Source: Candidatus Tectomicrobia bacterium (GTDB taxonomy: Bacteria; UBA8248). Taken from it: a stretch of DNA of 64,000 nucleotides. Shown in pieces: positions 29,483-35,398 of the stretch. The notes under the pieces were generated by a model. That model worked only from the letters and a program-made list of their open reading frames with translations, ran no database searches and was not told where the DNA came from. Position 1 is the first letter of the stretch; each line of letters begins with the position of its first letter. The translations under genes and the position numbers were made by a program. The stretch is taken from NCBI GenBank assembly GCA_016192135.1, contig JACPUR010000019.1, forward strand, positions 1-64,000. Direction: 5' to 3'.

Positions 29483-30451
29483 CTACAAGGCCGCGGCGGG
29501 GGCTTTCGCCCGGAGCTTCTTCCCCTCCGCCTGGGCCTCGAGGTATTTCTCGGCCGCGACGGCGGCGGTGGTGGCGTCCCCGACCGCGTTGGTGATCTGG
29601 CGGATGAGCTGGCTGCGGCAGTCCCCCGCCACGAACAGGCCGGGGATGTTCGTCGCCATGTTCTGGTCGGTGATGATGAAGCCGGCCTCGTCCTTCTTCA
29701 CCGGCTCCTTGATGAGGCCGGTGTTCGGCACGAAGCCGACGAAGACGAAAAGGCCCTGGGCCTCGATCTCCCGCACCTCGCCCGTCTTCACGTTGCGGAC
29801 GCGGAGCTTCTTCATCTCCTTCTCGTCCCCGATGACCTCCTCGGGCACGGTGTCGAGGATGATCTCGGCCTTGGGGTTCTCCTTCAGCCGGTCCACCGCG
29901 ACGGCGTGCGCCCGGAACTGGTCGCGCCGGTGGATGAGGTAGACCTTCGTGCCGTACTTGGTGAGGAACATCCCCTCCTCGACGGCGCTGTTGCCGCCCC
30001 CGACGACGGTGATGACCTCGTCCTGGAAGAAGGCCCCGTCGCAGAGCGCGCAGTAGCTCACGCCCTTGCCGGCGTACTTCTGCTCGCCCGGGATGCCGAG
30101 CTTCCGGGGGGTGCCGCCCGGGGTGTAGATGACGGCGCCGCAGCGGCGCTCGCCCTCGGTGGTCCGGACGACGAAGTCGTCGCCGTCCCTGCGGATCTCG
30201 GTGACCTCCTCCAGCTCGATCTTGAGGCCGAACTTCTGGGCGTGCTCGGCGAACTTGGCCGCCAGCTCCTGGCCCCCAATGAGCTCGAAGCCCGGGTAGT
30301 CCTCCACGAACTCGGTGTTGAGGATCTCGCCCCCGGGGGCGAGCTTCTCGTAGCAGACGACGTTCAGCTTCGAGCGCGAGGCGTAGAGGCCCGCCGTCAG
30401 GCCCGCCGGCCCCCCGCCCACGATGATGATGTCATAATCACGGTCCGCCAA
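29483..30451 (-). CDS. trxB: Thioredoxin reductase
   Basis: A 322-residue low-molecular-weight thioredoxin reductase: FAD site IIIVGGGPAGLTAGLYA, redox pair Cys 134/Cys 137 (CALC), NADPH site VVGGGNSAVEEG, and the final FAD motif FVAGDCRS. It reduces thioredoxin- or glutaredoxin-type proteins with NADPH. It is upstream of nuoI on the same strand. It could supply electrons to the seleno-glutaredoxin of the mercury locus 5 kb away, but that is inference. Confidence 0.94.
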   Translation of the reverse strand: MADRDYDIIIVGGGPAGLTAGLYASRSKLNVVCYEKLAPGGEILNTEFVEDYPGFELIGGQELAAKFAEHAQKFGLKIELEEVTEIRRDGDDFVVRTTEGERRCGAVIYTPGGTPRKLGIPGEQKYAGKGVSYCALCDGAFFQDEVITVVGGGNSAVEEGMFLTKYGTKVYLIHRRDQFRAHAVAVDRLKENPKAEIILDTVPEEVIGDEKEMKKLRVRNVKTGEVREIEAQGLFVFVGFVPNTGLIKEPVKKDEAGFIITDQNMATNIPGLFVAGDCRSQLIRQITNAVGDATTAAVAAEKYLEAQAEGKKLRAKAPAAAL

Positions 30452-30970: not shown

Positions 30971-31399
30971 TCAAACCGCTCCTTCGAACGCCGCGAGGAC
31001 CGGGCACAGGGAGGCGGGGGCATCCTTCCGGCAGGCGTCGGCCAGGGCCCGCAGCTCGCGGCGGACGCGCTGGAGGGCGCGGATTTTTTCGTCGATCTCG
31101 GCCACCTTGCGCTCGGCCCGGCCCAGGACGTCCCCGCAGCGCGCGCGGTCCCTCAAACGGAGCTCCAGGAGGCCGCGAATCTCCTCCAGCGAGAAGCCGA
31201 GGGCCTGGGCCCGCTTGATGGCGCTCAGCCTCCCCACGGCCTCGGGAGGATACACCCGGAAGGCGCCGCGCCGCTCCCCCGGACGCTCGATGAGGCCCCT
31301 GCGCTCGTAGTAGCGCACGGTCTCCACGTGAACCCCGGCGCACCGGGCCAGGGCGCCGATGGTGAGGGGGCGCTTGGAAGAAGTCTGGGCGCGCGGCAT
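30971..31399 (-). CDS. merR: Mercury-responsive transcriptional regulator MerR
   Basis: A 142-residue MerR. The winged helix-turn-helix (LTIGALARCAGVHVETVRYY, ERRGLI) is N-terminal. All three Hg(II)-binding Cys of true MerR have equivalents: Cys 88, Cys 123 and Cys 132, with the same 35 and 9 residue spacing as in Tn501 MerR (C82, C117, C126). So this is a mercury sensor rather than a copper or zinc one. It sits at the 3' end of the mercury gene array and is preceded by a merE fragment. Start at 31399 follows AAGGAG. The first 66 bases are repeated at 33237-33301. Confidence 0.93.
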   Translation of the reverse strand: MPRAQTSSKRPLTIGALARCAGVHVETVRYYERRGLIERPGERRGAFRVYPPEAVGRLSAIKRAQALGFSLEEIRGLLELRLRDRARCGDVLGRAERKVAEIDEKIRALQRVRRELRALADACRKDAPASLCPVLAAFEGAV

Positions 31400-31433
31400 G
31401 GGAGGCTCCTTACCGGGACGGCGGCGCGGGCGA
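31335..31433. repeat. 99-bp direct repeat, copy A (merE end plus merR start)
   Basis: Identical by eye, base for base, with 33237-33335. It covers the first 65 bases of merR, its ribosome site and the tail of merE. The twin copies mark the edges of a duplication or recombination. Confidence 0.92.
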
Positions 31434-31500
31434 GGATGAGGCCCGGACCCCATATATCCAACTGCCCGATGAAGATTACACCCATGAGCATGAAAATCAT
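31434..31500 (-). pseudogene. merE 3' fragment upstream of merR
   Basis: Reading on the minus strand gives IFMLMGVIFIGQLDIWGPGL, a diverged and frame-disturbed copy of the MerE end TFALMGVVFLGALGAWNLLS (33312-33527). It joins the 99-bp repeat in the same place as in the intact merE. No start or N-terminal part is left. Confidence 0.65.
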
Positions 31501-31557: not shown

Positions 31558-32904
31558 TCAGAGCATATAAGCGATATCCGATGTCGCCGTCGGGTAAGCG
31601 AAAATCATGTCCTTCAGGATTCGAGAGGTCAGGCCGTTTCGAATGGCCAGAGCGAAGAGGTTGATGGTTTCCTCGGCGCCTGGTCCCAGGAGATGCGCCC
31701 CCAGAATCCGCTCGGTGCCTTCTTCTATCAAAATCTTGTACCCGGCGCAGTCTTCTCCGATTCGGCGGGACGTATACCAGCCCGAGGAATCCCCCCGGCT
31801 GACGCGGAACTTGAGGCCCCTGCGGTTCGCTTCACCTTCCTGCAACCCCACGCCGGCGAGGGGCGGGATGGTGAAGACCACGCTCGGCACCCCCCGGTGA
31901 TTGGGCTTGTGCTTGTTTCCCTCCAGCAAATTACGGGCGACGATGGTTCCCTCATGGGCCGCCACCGGGGTCAGCGGGGGGCCGCTCTCCGCCGCGTCGC
32001 CCGCCGCGTACACGGCCGGATTCGAGACGCTCTGGAGGTAGTCGTTCACTTTGACGCCGCGCTCATGCTCCACGTGGGCTGCGCCGAGATTCAGATCGTC
32101 AATCTCGGGGACCCTCCCGGCGGCATGCACCACCAAGTCCGCCCCGAAATCCTTGGTTGATCCATTCGTTTTGGCAGTTGCCAGAAAAGCGCTTCCCTGC
32201 TTTTCAATCCGAGAGACTTCGGTCTCCAGGTGCACCACGATTCCTAGGCGCCGGGATTTTTCCAGAAGCTGCCCGGTCAGATCCGGATCAAAACCGCCCA
32301 GCACCCTTTTCCCTCGGTGGAGAACCGTCACTTGGCTTCCGGCGCGGCTTGCGACATGGGCAAATTCGAACGCGATGTAGCCTCCCCCGACCAGCAGCAT
32401 GCGCCGGGGCAGTTCTTCCAGATCCAGGAATTGTTCGCTCGTCGTCAGGTGCTCTTCGCCGGGGATGCCGAGGGTGGCCGGCCGCGCCCCCGTCGCGATG
32501 ACGACATGCCGTGCCTCAAGGGCTTCGTTTTCCACCTGGAGCGATTGCTTTCCAGTGAAACGGGCGCGTCCGTGGTAGGTCTCGATGCCTTTGTCGTTGT
32601 AGTTTTTTTCCATCTTTCCCGGCATCGGTTCTGTGAAGGAGCGCTTGAACCGGATGAGGTCCTGCCAATGGATGCCGATCCTTTCCGCCGTGAAACCTTT
32701 GCCGTGGAGCCGCCGGGCATGGTCCGCTGCCTCGGCCGCTCCCACCAGGACCTTCTTGGGGTCGCATCCCCGCAAGGCGCACGTTCCGCCGAAGGGCCGC
32801 GAATCGACCACCGCGACGCTCCAGCCGGCGGAGCGGCACATCGCCGCCGCAGAGGAGGCGGCGCTGCCGGTGCCGATGACAACCAGGTCATAGTTCTTGG
32901 CCAT
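31558..32904 (-). CDS. MerA-like FAD-dependent disulfide oxidoreductase
   Basis: A 448-residue pyridine-nucleotide disulfide oxidoreductase in the mercury locus. FAD motif IGTGSAASSAA, redox Cys 42 and Cys 47 in GGTCALRGC, NAD(P) motif LLVGGGYIAFEFAHVAS and FAD motif YAAGDAAES are present. Two features of classic mercuric reductase are missing: the N-terminal HMA domain and the C-terminal Cys-Cys pair (it ends DIAYML). It may reduce Hg(II) delivered by the Sec-containing MerP, or regenerate a thiol/selenol carrier. Context favours mercury; sequence alone would also allow a glutathione-reductase-like role. GGGGGAGGG precedes the ATG. Confidence 0.85.
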   Translation of the reverse strand: MAKNYDLVVIGTGSAASSAAAMCRSAGWSVAVVDSRPFGGTCALRGCDPKKVLVGAAEAADHARRLHGKGFTAERIGIHWQDLIRFKRSFTEPMPGKMEKNYNDKGIETYHGRARFTGKQSLQVENEALEARHVVIATGARPATLGIPGEEHLTTSEQFLDLEELPRRMLLVGGGYIAFEFAHVASRAGSQVTVLHRGKRVLGGFDPDLTGQLLEKSRRLGIVVHLETEVSRIEKQGSAFLATAKTNGSTKDFGADLVVHAAGRVPEIDDLNLGAAHVEHERGVKVNDYLQSVSNPAVYAAGDAAESGPPLTPVAAHEGTIVARNLLEGNKHKPNHRGVPSVVFTIPPLAGVGLQEGEANRRGLKFRVSRGDSSGWYTSRRIGEDCAGYKILIEEGTERILGAHLLGPGAEETINLFALAIRNGLTSRILKDMIFAYPTATSDIAYML

Positions 32905-32973: not shown

Positions 32974-33201
32974 TCATTTCTCCTCGTCCAGCGGGGAAGC
33001 TTGGAAGCCGTATCGCTCGAGCGCCTTCTTCATGCCGGCGAAGCTGGCCTTCTTGGGATCGTAGAGCACATCAGCCCGTTTCTTGGCAAAGCTCACTCCT
33101 TCCACCTTCACCCCCGGGAGCCCCTCCAGGGCCCCTGCGACCACCTGGGGTCAGGTGAAGGGTCAGGTCATCCCGTCCACGCGCAGTGCCAGCCGCTCCA
33201 T
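32974..33201 (-). CDS. merP: MerP-like mercury-binding selenoprotein with two in-frame UGA codons
   Basis: A 75-residue HMA-fold protein when two TGA codons (33165-33163 and 33153-33151) are read as selenocysteine, residues 13 and 17. The sequence around them is GMT-U-PFT-U-PQVVAGALEG, in the place of the GMTCxxC metal loop of MerP. The frame stays open to a TGA at 32974 and closely matches the MerP half of the fusion at 33524, including both UGAs. No signal peptide is left: an upstream ATG (33231) extends it only into repeat sequence. MerP passes Hg(II) to MerT; this copy, if expressed, would be cytoplasmic. Conventional annotation would miss it. Confidence 0.85.
33116..33135 (-). promoter_or_regulatory. 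Candidate bacterial SECIS hairpin of merP
   Basis: Minus-strand RNA folds as GGG-GCCC, loop UGGAG, GGGC-U-CCC (7 bp with one bulged U). The apical loop begins 22 nt after the second UGA, inside the 16-37 nt window usual for SelB-bound SECIS elements. Confidence 0.6.
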
Positions 33202-33236
33202 CCGGGTCTGCGCGGGGGAAGACGCCCCCATCGCCG

Positions 33237-33301
33237 CCGGCGCACCGGGCCAGGGCGCCGATGGTGAGGGGGCGCTTGGAAGAAGTCTGGGCGCGCGGCA
33301 T
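33237..33301 (-). pseudogene. merR 5' fragment
   Basis: The first 21-22 codons of merR (MPRAQTSSKRPLTIGALARC) with their ribosome site, then an abrupt join to sequence leading into merP. This would give a useless short peptide; it marks a recombination junction. Confidence 0.9.
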
Positions 33302-33335
33302 GGGAGGCTCCTTACCGGGACGGCGGCGCGGGCGA
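33237..33335. repeat. 99-bp direct repeat, copy B (merE end plus merR start)
   Basis: Twin of 31335-31433. Here the merE part belongs to the intact merE gene, and the merR part is a cut-off copy. Confidence 0.92.
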
Positions 33336-33527
33336 CCGGGAGAGCAGGTTCCACGCGCCCAGCGCCCCGAGGAAGACTACACCCATCAGGGCGAAAGTCA
33401 CGCCCGGGCTCCCCGAAACCGCCGCGCCCAGCGCGGTCCCGCCCAGCAGGACAAGATAGATGGGCAGGTGGCACGGGCAGGTCAGGAAGGCTACTCCAAG
33501 CATGATCTTGCCAAGCACCGTCCTCAT
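33312..33527 (-). CDS. merE: Mercury transporter MerE
   Basis: A 71-residue inner-membrane protein with the MerE hallmark LTCPCHLPIYLVLLGGTALG (Cys pair CPC in the first membrane segment) and a second segment GVTFALMGVVFLGALGAWNL. MerE moves Hg(II) and methylmercury across the inner membrane. Its ATG overlaps the stop of the MerT-MerP gene (ATGA), so its translation depends on reading through the two UGA codons upstream. That coupling supports the extended reading. Confidence 0.9.
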   Translation of the reverse strand: MRTVLGKIMLGVAFLTCPCHLPIYLVLLGGTALGAAVSGSPGVTFALMGVVFLGALGAWNLLSRSPAPPSR

Positions 33528-34147
33528 TTGCCCTCATCCAGCCGGGATGCGGTAAAACCATACTTCTCCAGGGCCTTCTTCATCTCGGCAAAGCCAACTT
33601 TGCTGGGATCGTAGAGAAGGTCGGCGCGCTTCCGGGCGAAGCTCACTTCTTCCACCTTCACCCCGGGGAGCCCCTCCAGGGCCCCCGCGACCAGCTTCGG
33701 TCAGGTGAAGGGTCAGGTCATGCCTTCCACGCGAAGCGCGAGGCGCTCCATCCGGGTCCGCGCGGGAGAAGACGCCGCCACTCGCGCCGGGGGCTCGCCG
33801 CCTGGGGCGGTGTTGTTCACGTCCACCCCGAGATACGCCCCCGCCGGGGTGTAGGTGATCGCGAAGAAGAACGCCACGGCCGCGGTGTTCGCCCACAGCA
33901 GCCACTTGCGCGCTTTTCCACCTCCGATCTCGCAGAGCCCCAGTTCGCAGGCCATCACGTCGCGCCGGTAGGCGTACCAGGCGTACCCAAGAGCCACCAC
34001 GGCCAGCGCCATGAGGTAGGTCTTGTAGCGGACGAGGAACACCGTCAGGACGCTCCCGCCGAGCCCCACGGCGATCAGCACCAAGGGCAAAACGCAGCAC
34101 GAGGCCCCGAGCGTCCCCGCGAGGAAGCCCTTGTTCGGCTTGTTCAT
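33524..34147 (-). CDS. MerT-MerP fusion, selenoprotein with two in-frame UGA codons
   Basis: 207 residues if two TGA codons are read as selenocysteine. Residues 1-115 are MerT: GTLGASCCVLPLVLIAVGLG (vicinal Cys pair in helix 1), helix 2 and a third membrane segment, with a Cys loop (VMACELGLCEIGG) between. A linker (TAPGGEPPARVAASSPARTR) leads to a MerP/HMA domain whose loop reads GMT-U-PFT-U-PKLV, with U at residues 145 (33715-33713) and 149 (33703-33701). The frame then stays open for 58 codons to the TGA that overlaps merE. UGA is a normal stop elsewhere in the window, so code reassignment is excluded. MerT-MerP would take up Hg(II) and hand it to the cytoplasm. Confidence 0.88.
33665..33686 (-). 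promoter_or_regulatory. Candidate bacterial SECIS hairpin of merT-merP
   Basis: GGGG-GCCC, loop UGGAG, GGGC-U-CCCC: eight pairs with one bulged U. The loop begins 22 nt after the second UGA and 34 nt after the first, so one hairpin might serve both. Confidence 0.65.
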
Positions 34148-34168: not shown

Positions 34169-34627
34169 TCAGCCCCTTCGCTTCACCCAGTAGGCCACAT
34201 TCCCGAGGCAGCAGGCCCCTTGAGGATTCTTCACGTCGCATTGACACTGGCCCTCCTTCACCTTCTCCCATATGGCGGCGGGGATGCGGGGAGGGGAGTG
34301 GAGCGCCGCGTCGTCCATGATGGCCCGCGCCGTGTGGCCGAAGCAGTAGCAGACCGGGATATCGCTCGCGTCCTCCTTCTGCCACACGGGGACGGCGAGC
34401 TTGTCCTTGGCGATCTCATGGCCTTTCCGATCGAAGTAGACCGTCACGCAATCCCGCTGCACGCAAAAATACACCGGCCCATCGGGCGAGAGCGCTCCCC
34501 GGCCCTCCTCCCTCACGAGGCTGGCCAATGTCACTCGGGGGTTGGGCACCTTCCGGGTTCCCAGGCACTCGATGCCCTCCTTCCGGCAGGAGGGGCAAAC
34601 AGGGCCGGATGGCTTGCCCTCCGTCAT
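34169..34627 (-). CDS. CopZ-like iron-sulfur metallochaperone-type protein
   Basis: A 152-residue Cys-rich protein: CPSCRKEGIECLG at the N-terminus, CVQRDCV in the middle, and VCYCFGHTARAI with QCQCDVKNPQGACCLGNV at the C-terminus. The latter is the [2Fe-2S] plus zinc layout of the N-terminal domain of Archaeoglobus CopZ. Its start overlaps the merF stop by 4 bases. In this setting it may bind or reduce metal on the way from MerT/MerF to MerA. The role is inferred; no HMA domain is attached here. Confidence 0.8.
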   Translation of the reverse strand: MTEGKPSGPVCPSCRKEGIECLGTRKVPNPRVTLASLVREEGRGALSPDGPVYFCVQRDCVTVYFDRKGHEIAKDKLAVPVWQKEDASDIPVCYCFGHTARAIMDDAALHSPPRIPAAIWEKVKEGQCQCDVKNPQGACCLGNVAYWVKRRG

Positions 34628-34872
34628 CGCTCAGCCTCCGACGGCCCGCGCGGGGCGTCCTCCCGCGCGCGCTCCCTCCTCATGCGCCGGTAGCCGTGGG
34701 CCGCGAGCGCAAGAAAGAGGACGAGCAGGGGCAGCAGCACATAGTCGGCCCAGCCGAGCCAGGCCGCGAGCCCCACGGCGGGAAGCAAGATCGCGAGGAC
34801 GGGCGTGAAGCAGCAGATGGCCGCGAGGACGCTGCCCGCCGCGCCGCATTTCAACTGGGACCTGCAATTCAT
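34624..34872 (-). CDS. merF: Mercury transporter MerF
   Basis: An 82-residue two-helix membrane protein: AGSVLAAICCFTPVLAILLP with the vicinal Cys pair and Pro, then WLGWADYVLLPLLVLFLALA, the MerF pattern. It moves Hg(II) across the inner membrane. ATGA overlaps on both sides, with the zinc-ribbon gene before and the CopZ-like gene after, make a tightly coupled string. Confidence 0.92.
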   Translation of the reverse strand: MNCRSQLKCGAAGSVLAAICCFTPVLAILLPAVGLAAWLGWADYVLLPLLVLFLALAAHGYRRMRRERAREDAPRGPSEAER

Positions 34873-35159
34873 CCCGCCTCCTCCAGCGAGAACGCGCCGA
34901 ACTCCCGGGCCAGGCGGAAGGTTCTCCCGTCGTGCTCCACGGTGGAGCCCTCGGGGGTCTCGTCGTCCACCGGGATGGGCTCCCCGCAGGCCGGGCAGCG
35001 GATCAGGTGGACGAGCTTGAGGATCTCCCTTCCGCCCTCGGCGCAGAGGCGGAACTTCACCCCCGCGCAGTTCTCGCACTCGATCAGGTCGCCCGGGCGG
35101 GCCCCCGGGGGGACGAGGATCTCCTGGCCGCAGCCCGGGCAGGGCAGGCGGCGCGTCAC
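34869..35159 (-). CDS. Zinc-ribbon protein in mercury operon
   Basis: A 96-residue protein with two Cys pairs early (LPCPGCGQEI and ECENCAG) and one later (IRCPACGEPI), plus a single Cys at RLCAEGG. Resembles small lysine-biosynthesis or rubredoxin-type zinc ribbons, not a named Mer protein. GTG start overlaps the stop of the glutaredoxin gene (GTGA), and its stop overlaps merF. Translational coupling shows it belongs to the operon; a thiol-rich mercury sink is one option. Confidence 0.75.
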   Translation of the reverse strand: MTRRLPCPGCGQEILVPPGARPGDLIECENCAGVKFRLCAEGGREILKLVHLIRCPACGEPIPVDDETPEGSTVEHDGRTFRLAREFGAFSLEEAG

Positions 35160-35398
35160 TTGCCCAGCCCCAGGAGGGCCTCCAGGCGCCCCCGGTCGAA
35201 GCCCACCACCATCTCATCCCCCACCAGGATGACGGGGCTGGCCCGGCGCCCCGTGCGTTCCTCGATCTCCCGCATTGCCCCGGGATCCTGGTCCACCAGC
35301 TTTTCTTCAAAGGCCACGCCATGATGTGAAAGAAACTCTTTCACCGCCTTGCAGGGGATTCAGGTGCTGGACGAATAGACGGTCACTTCGCGCGCCAC
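35156..35398 (-). CDS. Glutaredoxin-like selenoprotein with U-x-x-C active site
   Basis: An 80-residue glutaredoxin/NrdH-fold protein when TGA at 35362-35360 is read as selenocysteine, residue 13: VTVYSSST-U-IPC-KAV. This is the first Cys of the CPxC site. The thioredoxin-fold ending RRASPVILVGDEMVVGFD, with cis-Pro, is downstream of the UGA, in frame. I prefer the GTG at 35398 (GGAGAG seven bases before) over the ATG at 35434 in the same frame. First gene of the mercury operon, right after the MerR-type promoter. It may reduce protein disulfides or strip Hg from thiols. Without readthrough the gene makes no sense. Confidence 0.88.
35325..35345 (-). promoter_or_regulatory. Candidate bacterial SECIS hairpin of glutaredoxin
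   Basis: GUGAAAG, loop AGUUU, CUUUCAC: a perfect seven-pair stem, with the loop starting 22 nt after the UGA, the same distance as in both merP genes. Confidence 0.72.

Follow-up and report, generated by a model that had tools for sequence, protein, structure and literature searches.

In the mer system, periplasmic MerP delivers Hg(II) to MerT, whose helix-1 Cys pair receives the metal before it moves to a cytoplasmic Cys pair and then to MerA. Selenolates are known to bind Hg(II) more tightly than thiolates.

Selenocysteine (Sec) has already been described in proteins of this kind. In 2008, the GOS ocean metagenomes yielded predictions of a Sec-containing MerP and of a putative mercuric transport protein with Sec (PMC2398784), and Sec-containing mercury transport proteins are listed in reviews (PMC9312934, PMC13188914); the 2026 review gives the MerT-type selenoprotein one Sec only, in a C/SxxU motif (PMC13188914). 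Two NCBIfam families are the closest on the selenoprotein side: NF045683, the MerT/CopZ fusion-like selenoprotein, in which a MerT-like part precedes an HMA/CopZ-like part, and NF041115, the UxxU metal-binding (seleno)protein, an HMA protein with two Sec in the metal loop, named "putative mercuric reductase UxxU" in the reviews.

Here, we analysed a stretch of 64,000 nucleotides from a Candidatus Tectomicrobia bacterium (UBA8248; contig JACPUR010000019.1), hereafter the window. Its minus strand carries a mer-type cluster in which a MerT-HMA fusion gene, merTP, contains two in-frame TGA codons. On the sequence evidence presented below, merTP very probably encodes a functional MerT-HMA protein with two Sec residues.

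The merTP frame and its domains

When TGA is read through, the merTP frame (34147-33524, minus) gives a protein of 207 residues (MNKPNK...GMT-U-PFT-U-PKLV...DEGK-stop), and its stop TGA (33526-33524) overlaps the ATG of the merE-like gene (33527-33525). The plus-strand reading of the same interval is meaningless.

33524..34147, minus strand: merTP, predicted fusion selenoprotein (MerT at residues about 7-98, a linker, HMA/MerP-like domain at about 134-204)
33713..33715, minus strand: first in-frame TGA of merTP (predicted Sec145)
33701..33703, minus strand: second in-frame TGA of merTP (predicted Sec149), four codons past the first

A sequence-only reading of the locus had proposed this 207-aa MerT and HMA frame, with TGAs at residues 145 and 149 and the overlap with merE, and both translation and Pfam searches agree with it. 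With Cys put in place of Sec, merTP scored 37.4 bits for MerT (PF02411, gathering cut-off 32.9) and 29.9 bits for HMA (PF00403, cut-off 24.8). The MerT half holds four Cys (17, 18, 67, and 72), and Cys17-18 and Cys67/72 sit at places matching the Cys pairs of MerT. In the AlphaFold2 model, built on a seven-sequence alignment, the last 75 residues fold as beta-alpha-beta-beta-alpha-beta with a pLDDT of about 90, and the MerT part has low confidence. Foldseek matched the HMA domain to MerP 1osd, with a TM score of 0.91 on the target.

Under translation table 11 the product ends at residue 144 and the HMA domain is lost, as the earlier reading had pointed out for a stop at the first TGA; standard annotation would thus cut merTP at 144 aa and miss the metal-binding domain. 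A protein ending at 144 would still contain the whole MerT half and its four Cys, and Sec insertion at UGA generally competes with the release factor. Both points would fit a regulated termination, in which the 144-aa MerT is the main product, read-through is fractional, and selenium supply sets the amount of fusion protein. We regard this as rather unlikely. Two successive UGAs would lower the yield of the full-length protein; in any case, regulated termination would refine the two-Sec explanation and is not its opposite.

The surrounding mer-type cluster

Along the minus strand the order is glutaredoxin, zinc ribbon, merF, CopZ-type metallochaperone, merTP, merE, a second HMA copy, MerA-like gene, and merR, with a thioredoxin reductase further on; several of these neighbours overlap by a few bases.

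35156..35398, minus strand: predicted glutaredoxin-like selenoprotein (SSST-U-IPC, in-frame TGA)
34869..35159, minus strand: zinc-ribbon (LysW-like) small protein
34624..34872, minus strand: merF-like transporter
34169..34627, minus strand: CopZ N-terminal-domain-type putative Fe-S metallochaperone (NF047645)
33312..33527, minus strand: merE-like gene, its ATG overlapping the merTP stop
32974..33231, minus strand: second UxxxU HMA copy (putative gene), duplicating the 3' part of merTP and truncated at its own 5' end
31558..32904, minus strand: MerA/glutathione-reductase-like flavoprotein
30971..31453, minus strand: merR-like regulator, its true start probably the ATG near 31399
29483..30451, minus strand: thioredoxin reductase (TIGR01292, above cut-off)

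The glutaredoxin is another predicted selenoprotein of the cluster. Standard annotation would start it (35398-35156) downstream of its TGA, and six further family genomes have loci in which the predicted UxPC Sec glutaredoxin is conserved. By eye, the relative G014 keeps merR, merTP, and the merE-like, thioredoxin-reductase-like, CopZ-like, zinc-ribbon, and glutaredoxin genes.

The MerA-like protein has the GTCALRGC motif and lacks both the C-terminal CC pair and the N-terminal HMA domain. It scored 302 bits for MerA (cut-off 454) and 323 bits for the glutathione reductase model. In this respect the cluster departs from a classical mer operon, whose MerA has the catalytic Cys pair and the C-terminal CC; since the protein lacks this CC and scores at least as well for glutathione reductase, Hg reduction, or the final step in the cluster, is uncertain.

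These features bear on the identity of the cargo. Binding by HMA domains extends to several soft metals, and in NCBIfam the MerTP model and the general UxxU metal-binding model give merTP equally good top scores. The MerA-like gene, moreover, is not a typical one, and a glutaredoxin and a thioredoxin reductase lie nearby. It is thus conceivable, if on balance unlikely, that the protein contains Sec and carries another soft metal (Cu(I), Ag(I), or Cd(II)), or that its site is mainly redox active. On the other hand, the presence of MerT, MerF, MerE, and MerR-like genes in one cluster points to Hg, and on this gene content Hg(II) is probably the physiological cargo of merTP.

Some relatives also carry a MerT-like protein in which the helix-1 CC is replaced by UU, encoded by two adjacent in-frame TGAs (G007, G012, and G014), or by CU (G003).

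L043:10040-10339, minus strand: MerT-like UU protein
L086:7078-7371, plus strand: MerT-like UU protein
L087:973-1278, minus strand: MerT-like UU protein
L039:7032-7352: MerT-like CU protein

The second HMA copy in the window

The second HMA copy keeps both TGAs and is 81% identical to merTP over 268 nt. In-frame ATGs are found at 33231 and 33201, and neither has a clear ribosome-binding site, so that translation of this copy is uncertain. The start at 33301, which has a good ribosome site, is the copied merR start, lies in another frame, and cannot serve the copy. Indeed, the start region of merR is present twice as a perfect repeat of 99 nt (31335-31433 = 33237-33335), with which the 5' border of the second HMA copy coincides; this repeat reflects a recent rearrangement or an assembly effect. 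Judging from the substitutions described in the next section, the codons of the second copy were under selection for a long time.

Conservation of the two TGA codons

Besides the second copy in the window, five other genomes of the family have the U-P-x-x-U-P loop with both TGAs in frame: UPFGUP in G003; UPFTUP in G004, G010, and G014; and UPSSUP in G005. In all five the frame stays open past both codons. Seven sequences from four genera therefore share the two TGAs, which stand where HMA domains have their Cys, and neither TAA nor TAG occurs there. The MerT-HMA fusion is intact in two genomes only, that of the window and G014: G010 has a TAG inside MerT, G004 has a frame break between the halves, and G003 and G005 have separate MerP-type proteins that are not fused.

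Past the second UGA, comparison of the two window copies gave a dN/dS of 0.125/0.907 (about 0.14), and for the pair G010 and G014 it was 0.17/0.82. The window copies differ mostly at third codon positions (19 of the 31 changes). On these values, the codons downstream of the second TGA are under purifying selection. The merTP gene thus has what is expected of a bacterial selenoprotein, an in-frame UGA at a Cys position followed by conserved coding sequence.

The downstream half, where the sequence-only reading would have looked for pseudogene decay, is not decaying. Broken copies do exist: the TAG and the frame break just mentioned, as well as the 5' truncation of the second window copy, would be coherent with a pseudogene in which a Cys-type MerTP of the usual kind was disrupted by two nonsense mutations and the remainder is being lost. 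Nevertheless, chance or decay is a very unlikely origin for the TGAs, because the pair recurs in five genomes, the sequence behind it is under purifying selection, and a second copy retains it. The absence of TAA and TAG at these positions, together with the covarying hairpin and the Sec machinery described below, likewise argues against a pseudogene, which we consider highly improbable.

In more distant genomes we found UxxU (G065 and G090) and UxxC (G049 and G056) loops. Two HMA proteins from distant genomes (L102 and L103) are single-Sec UxxC types, with GMTUASC and GMSUPFC. The UxxC proteins are possible intermediate states between CxxC and UxxU. One-stop HMA matches in G014 (C198), G009, and G011 turned out to be ordinary CxxC domains in which the alignment overran the true stop.

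A scan of about 85,000 species with the pattern GM-x-UPF-x-UP, which would miss other loops such as UPSSUP, returned 22 matches. Only three of them are HMA genes; each comes from a genome that carries the Nitrospinota label, and one of these genomes is UBA8248. The remaining 19 appear fortuitous.

A candidate SECIS element

Just behind the second UGA lies a covarying hairpin with a short, G-containing apical loop, the arrangement expected of a SECIS element.

33647..33715, minus strand: candidate SECIS region, with a helix containing the second UGA and a covarying 7-bp hairpin capped by the 3-nt loop GGA

The hairpin pairs alignment columns 32-38 with 42-48 around a GGA or GUC loop, and starts 17 nt behind the second UGA. 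Four of its seven pairs have changed on both sides. Over the two helices, 96% of cells pair, against 30-57% after sliding, and RNAalifold recovered the same hairpin together with the helix containing the second UGA. None of 200 shuffles was as stable as the fold of the merTP copy (z -3.0), and the fold of the second copy did not differ significantly from its shuffles (z -0.4). Run against 18 genomes, an RNA model built from the hairpin matched the seven known sites and nothing else; this search is specific but partly circular, because the matches are the model's own training sequences. A search of the window with Rfam at gathering score returned no SECIS and no other match. A further outer helix, between the inter-UGA stretch and GGUGAA, fits most sequences and shifts register in others, and was not relied on.

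The apical loop begins 24 nt after the second UGA and 36 nt after the first; therefore, one element probably serves both codons.

Selenocysteine machinery and the reading of TGA

The sequence-only reading had called for a search for selA, selB, selC, and selD, and had treated a genome without selB and selC as telling against Sec. The window genome has both: a canonical tRNA-Sec with anticodon TCA on contig C28 and, on contig C15, selB (389 bits, cut-off 242) about 0.9 kb from selA (540 bits, cut-off 268). Only selD is missing above cut-off from the assembly, which is 96.8% complete; a weak match looks by eye like thiamine-monophosphate kinase and is not SelD. Since 14 of the 18 family genomes have selD, among them the two others of the genus, an assembly gap is the likely reason. 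Each of the family selD genes carries one in-frame TGA, of the Sec type. With selA, selB, and selC here and selD in the family, we scored the bacterial Sec machinery as present.

TGAs in frame within a conserved protein could also arise from a code change, with TGA read as Trp, Gly, or Cys. This reading is hardly credible here: TGA is the stop of 13 of the 31 long ORFs in the window and of most genes in the cluster, a canonical tRNA-Sec and SelB exist, and the TGAs fall on the Cys positions of the HMA loop.

The translation of both UGAs as Sec, which the sequence-only reading had put forward, is strongly supported by the sequence data: the machinery, the conserved TGAs, the covarying hairpin, the purifying selection, and the predicted Sec glutaredoxin all bear it out.

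Proposed mechanism and significance

We propose that the merTP product is a membrane protein that imports mercury, or some comparable soft metal, and carries a fused MerP-like domain. UGA145 and UGA149 would be translated as Sec by SelB and tRNA-Sec, with the hairpin just behind the second UGA as the RNA signal. From the usual topology of MerT, the HMA domain would lie in the periplasm, where its U-P-F-T-U loop would capture Hg(II) as a selenolate complex; the loop may form the diselenolate site suggested earlier. Hg(II) would then be handed to Cys17-Cys18 in helix 1 and to Cys67/Cys72 on the cytoplasmic side, to be reduced or disposed of by the neighbouring flavoproteins and redoxins. Since selenolates bind the metal more tightly, two Sec residues could allow it to be captured even where Hg is very scarce. 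The MerT-UU proteins of the relatives and the Sec glutaredoxin may have a part in metal release.

In most known selenoproteins, Sec is believed to serve redox catalysis. A Sec pair placed exactly at the HMA metal site is a clear example in which Sec probably acts as a metal ligand, and merTP makes it testable whether organisms exploit the affinity between mercury and selenium to handle mercury.

Comparison with known systems

Among the families that resemble merTP, NF033556 (MerTP fusion) has the same two-domain order and aligned over residues 7-200, with 70.2 bits, below its cut-off of 180. On the HMA side the best-scoring model was NF041115, which has a cut-off of 95 bits and gave 69.7 (merTP) and 74.2; the loop is UxxxU here and not UxxU. 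NF045683 gave merTP 41.6 bits in two separate stretches, against a cut-off of 375; therefore, compared by model score, merTP clearly belongs to another subfamily, and a closer catalogued relative may exist within NF045683. Plasmid relatives all have less than 60% identity, with separate merT and merP genes among the matches listed.

MerP (TIGR02052; PDB 1osd and 1afi) shares the fold and loop position of the merTP HMA domain, but it is unfused. The earlier statement that two Cys of this loop bind Hg is right for MerP itself, with its CxxC, and does not carry over directly: aligning merTP with solved HMA domains requires a gap of one residue in the loop, since those structures have CxxC and merTP has UxxxU (U-P-F-T-U), where the spacing is one residue longer.

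Nothing specific on UBA8248 selenoproteins or on Sec metallochaperones in mercury resistance came up in our literature search, and UxxxU is mentioned in neither review (PMC9312934, PMC13188914). The sequence-only reading had left it in doubt whether a Sec-containing MerT-MerP fusion had been described. Sec MerT/HMA fusions and UxxU HMA proteins are in fact catalogued, and it is the UxxxU variant that looks new. We tentatively suggest, at somewhat less than even confidence, a clade-specific, selenium-based mercury system in which a loop with two Sec ligands, a SECIS shared by two UGAs, and the relatives' MerT-UU and Sec glutaredoxin would relay Hg over selenolates and not thiolates. Compared with the known systems, what appears to be new in merTP is the UxxxU in place of UxxU or CxxC, the single candidate SECIS that would serve two UGAs, and a surrounding mer cluster rich in Sec.
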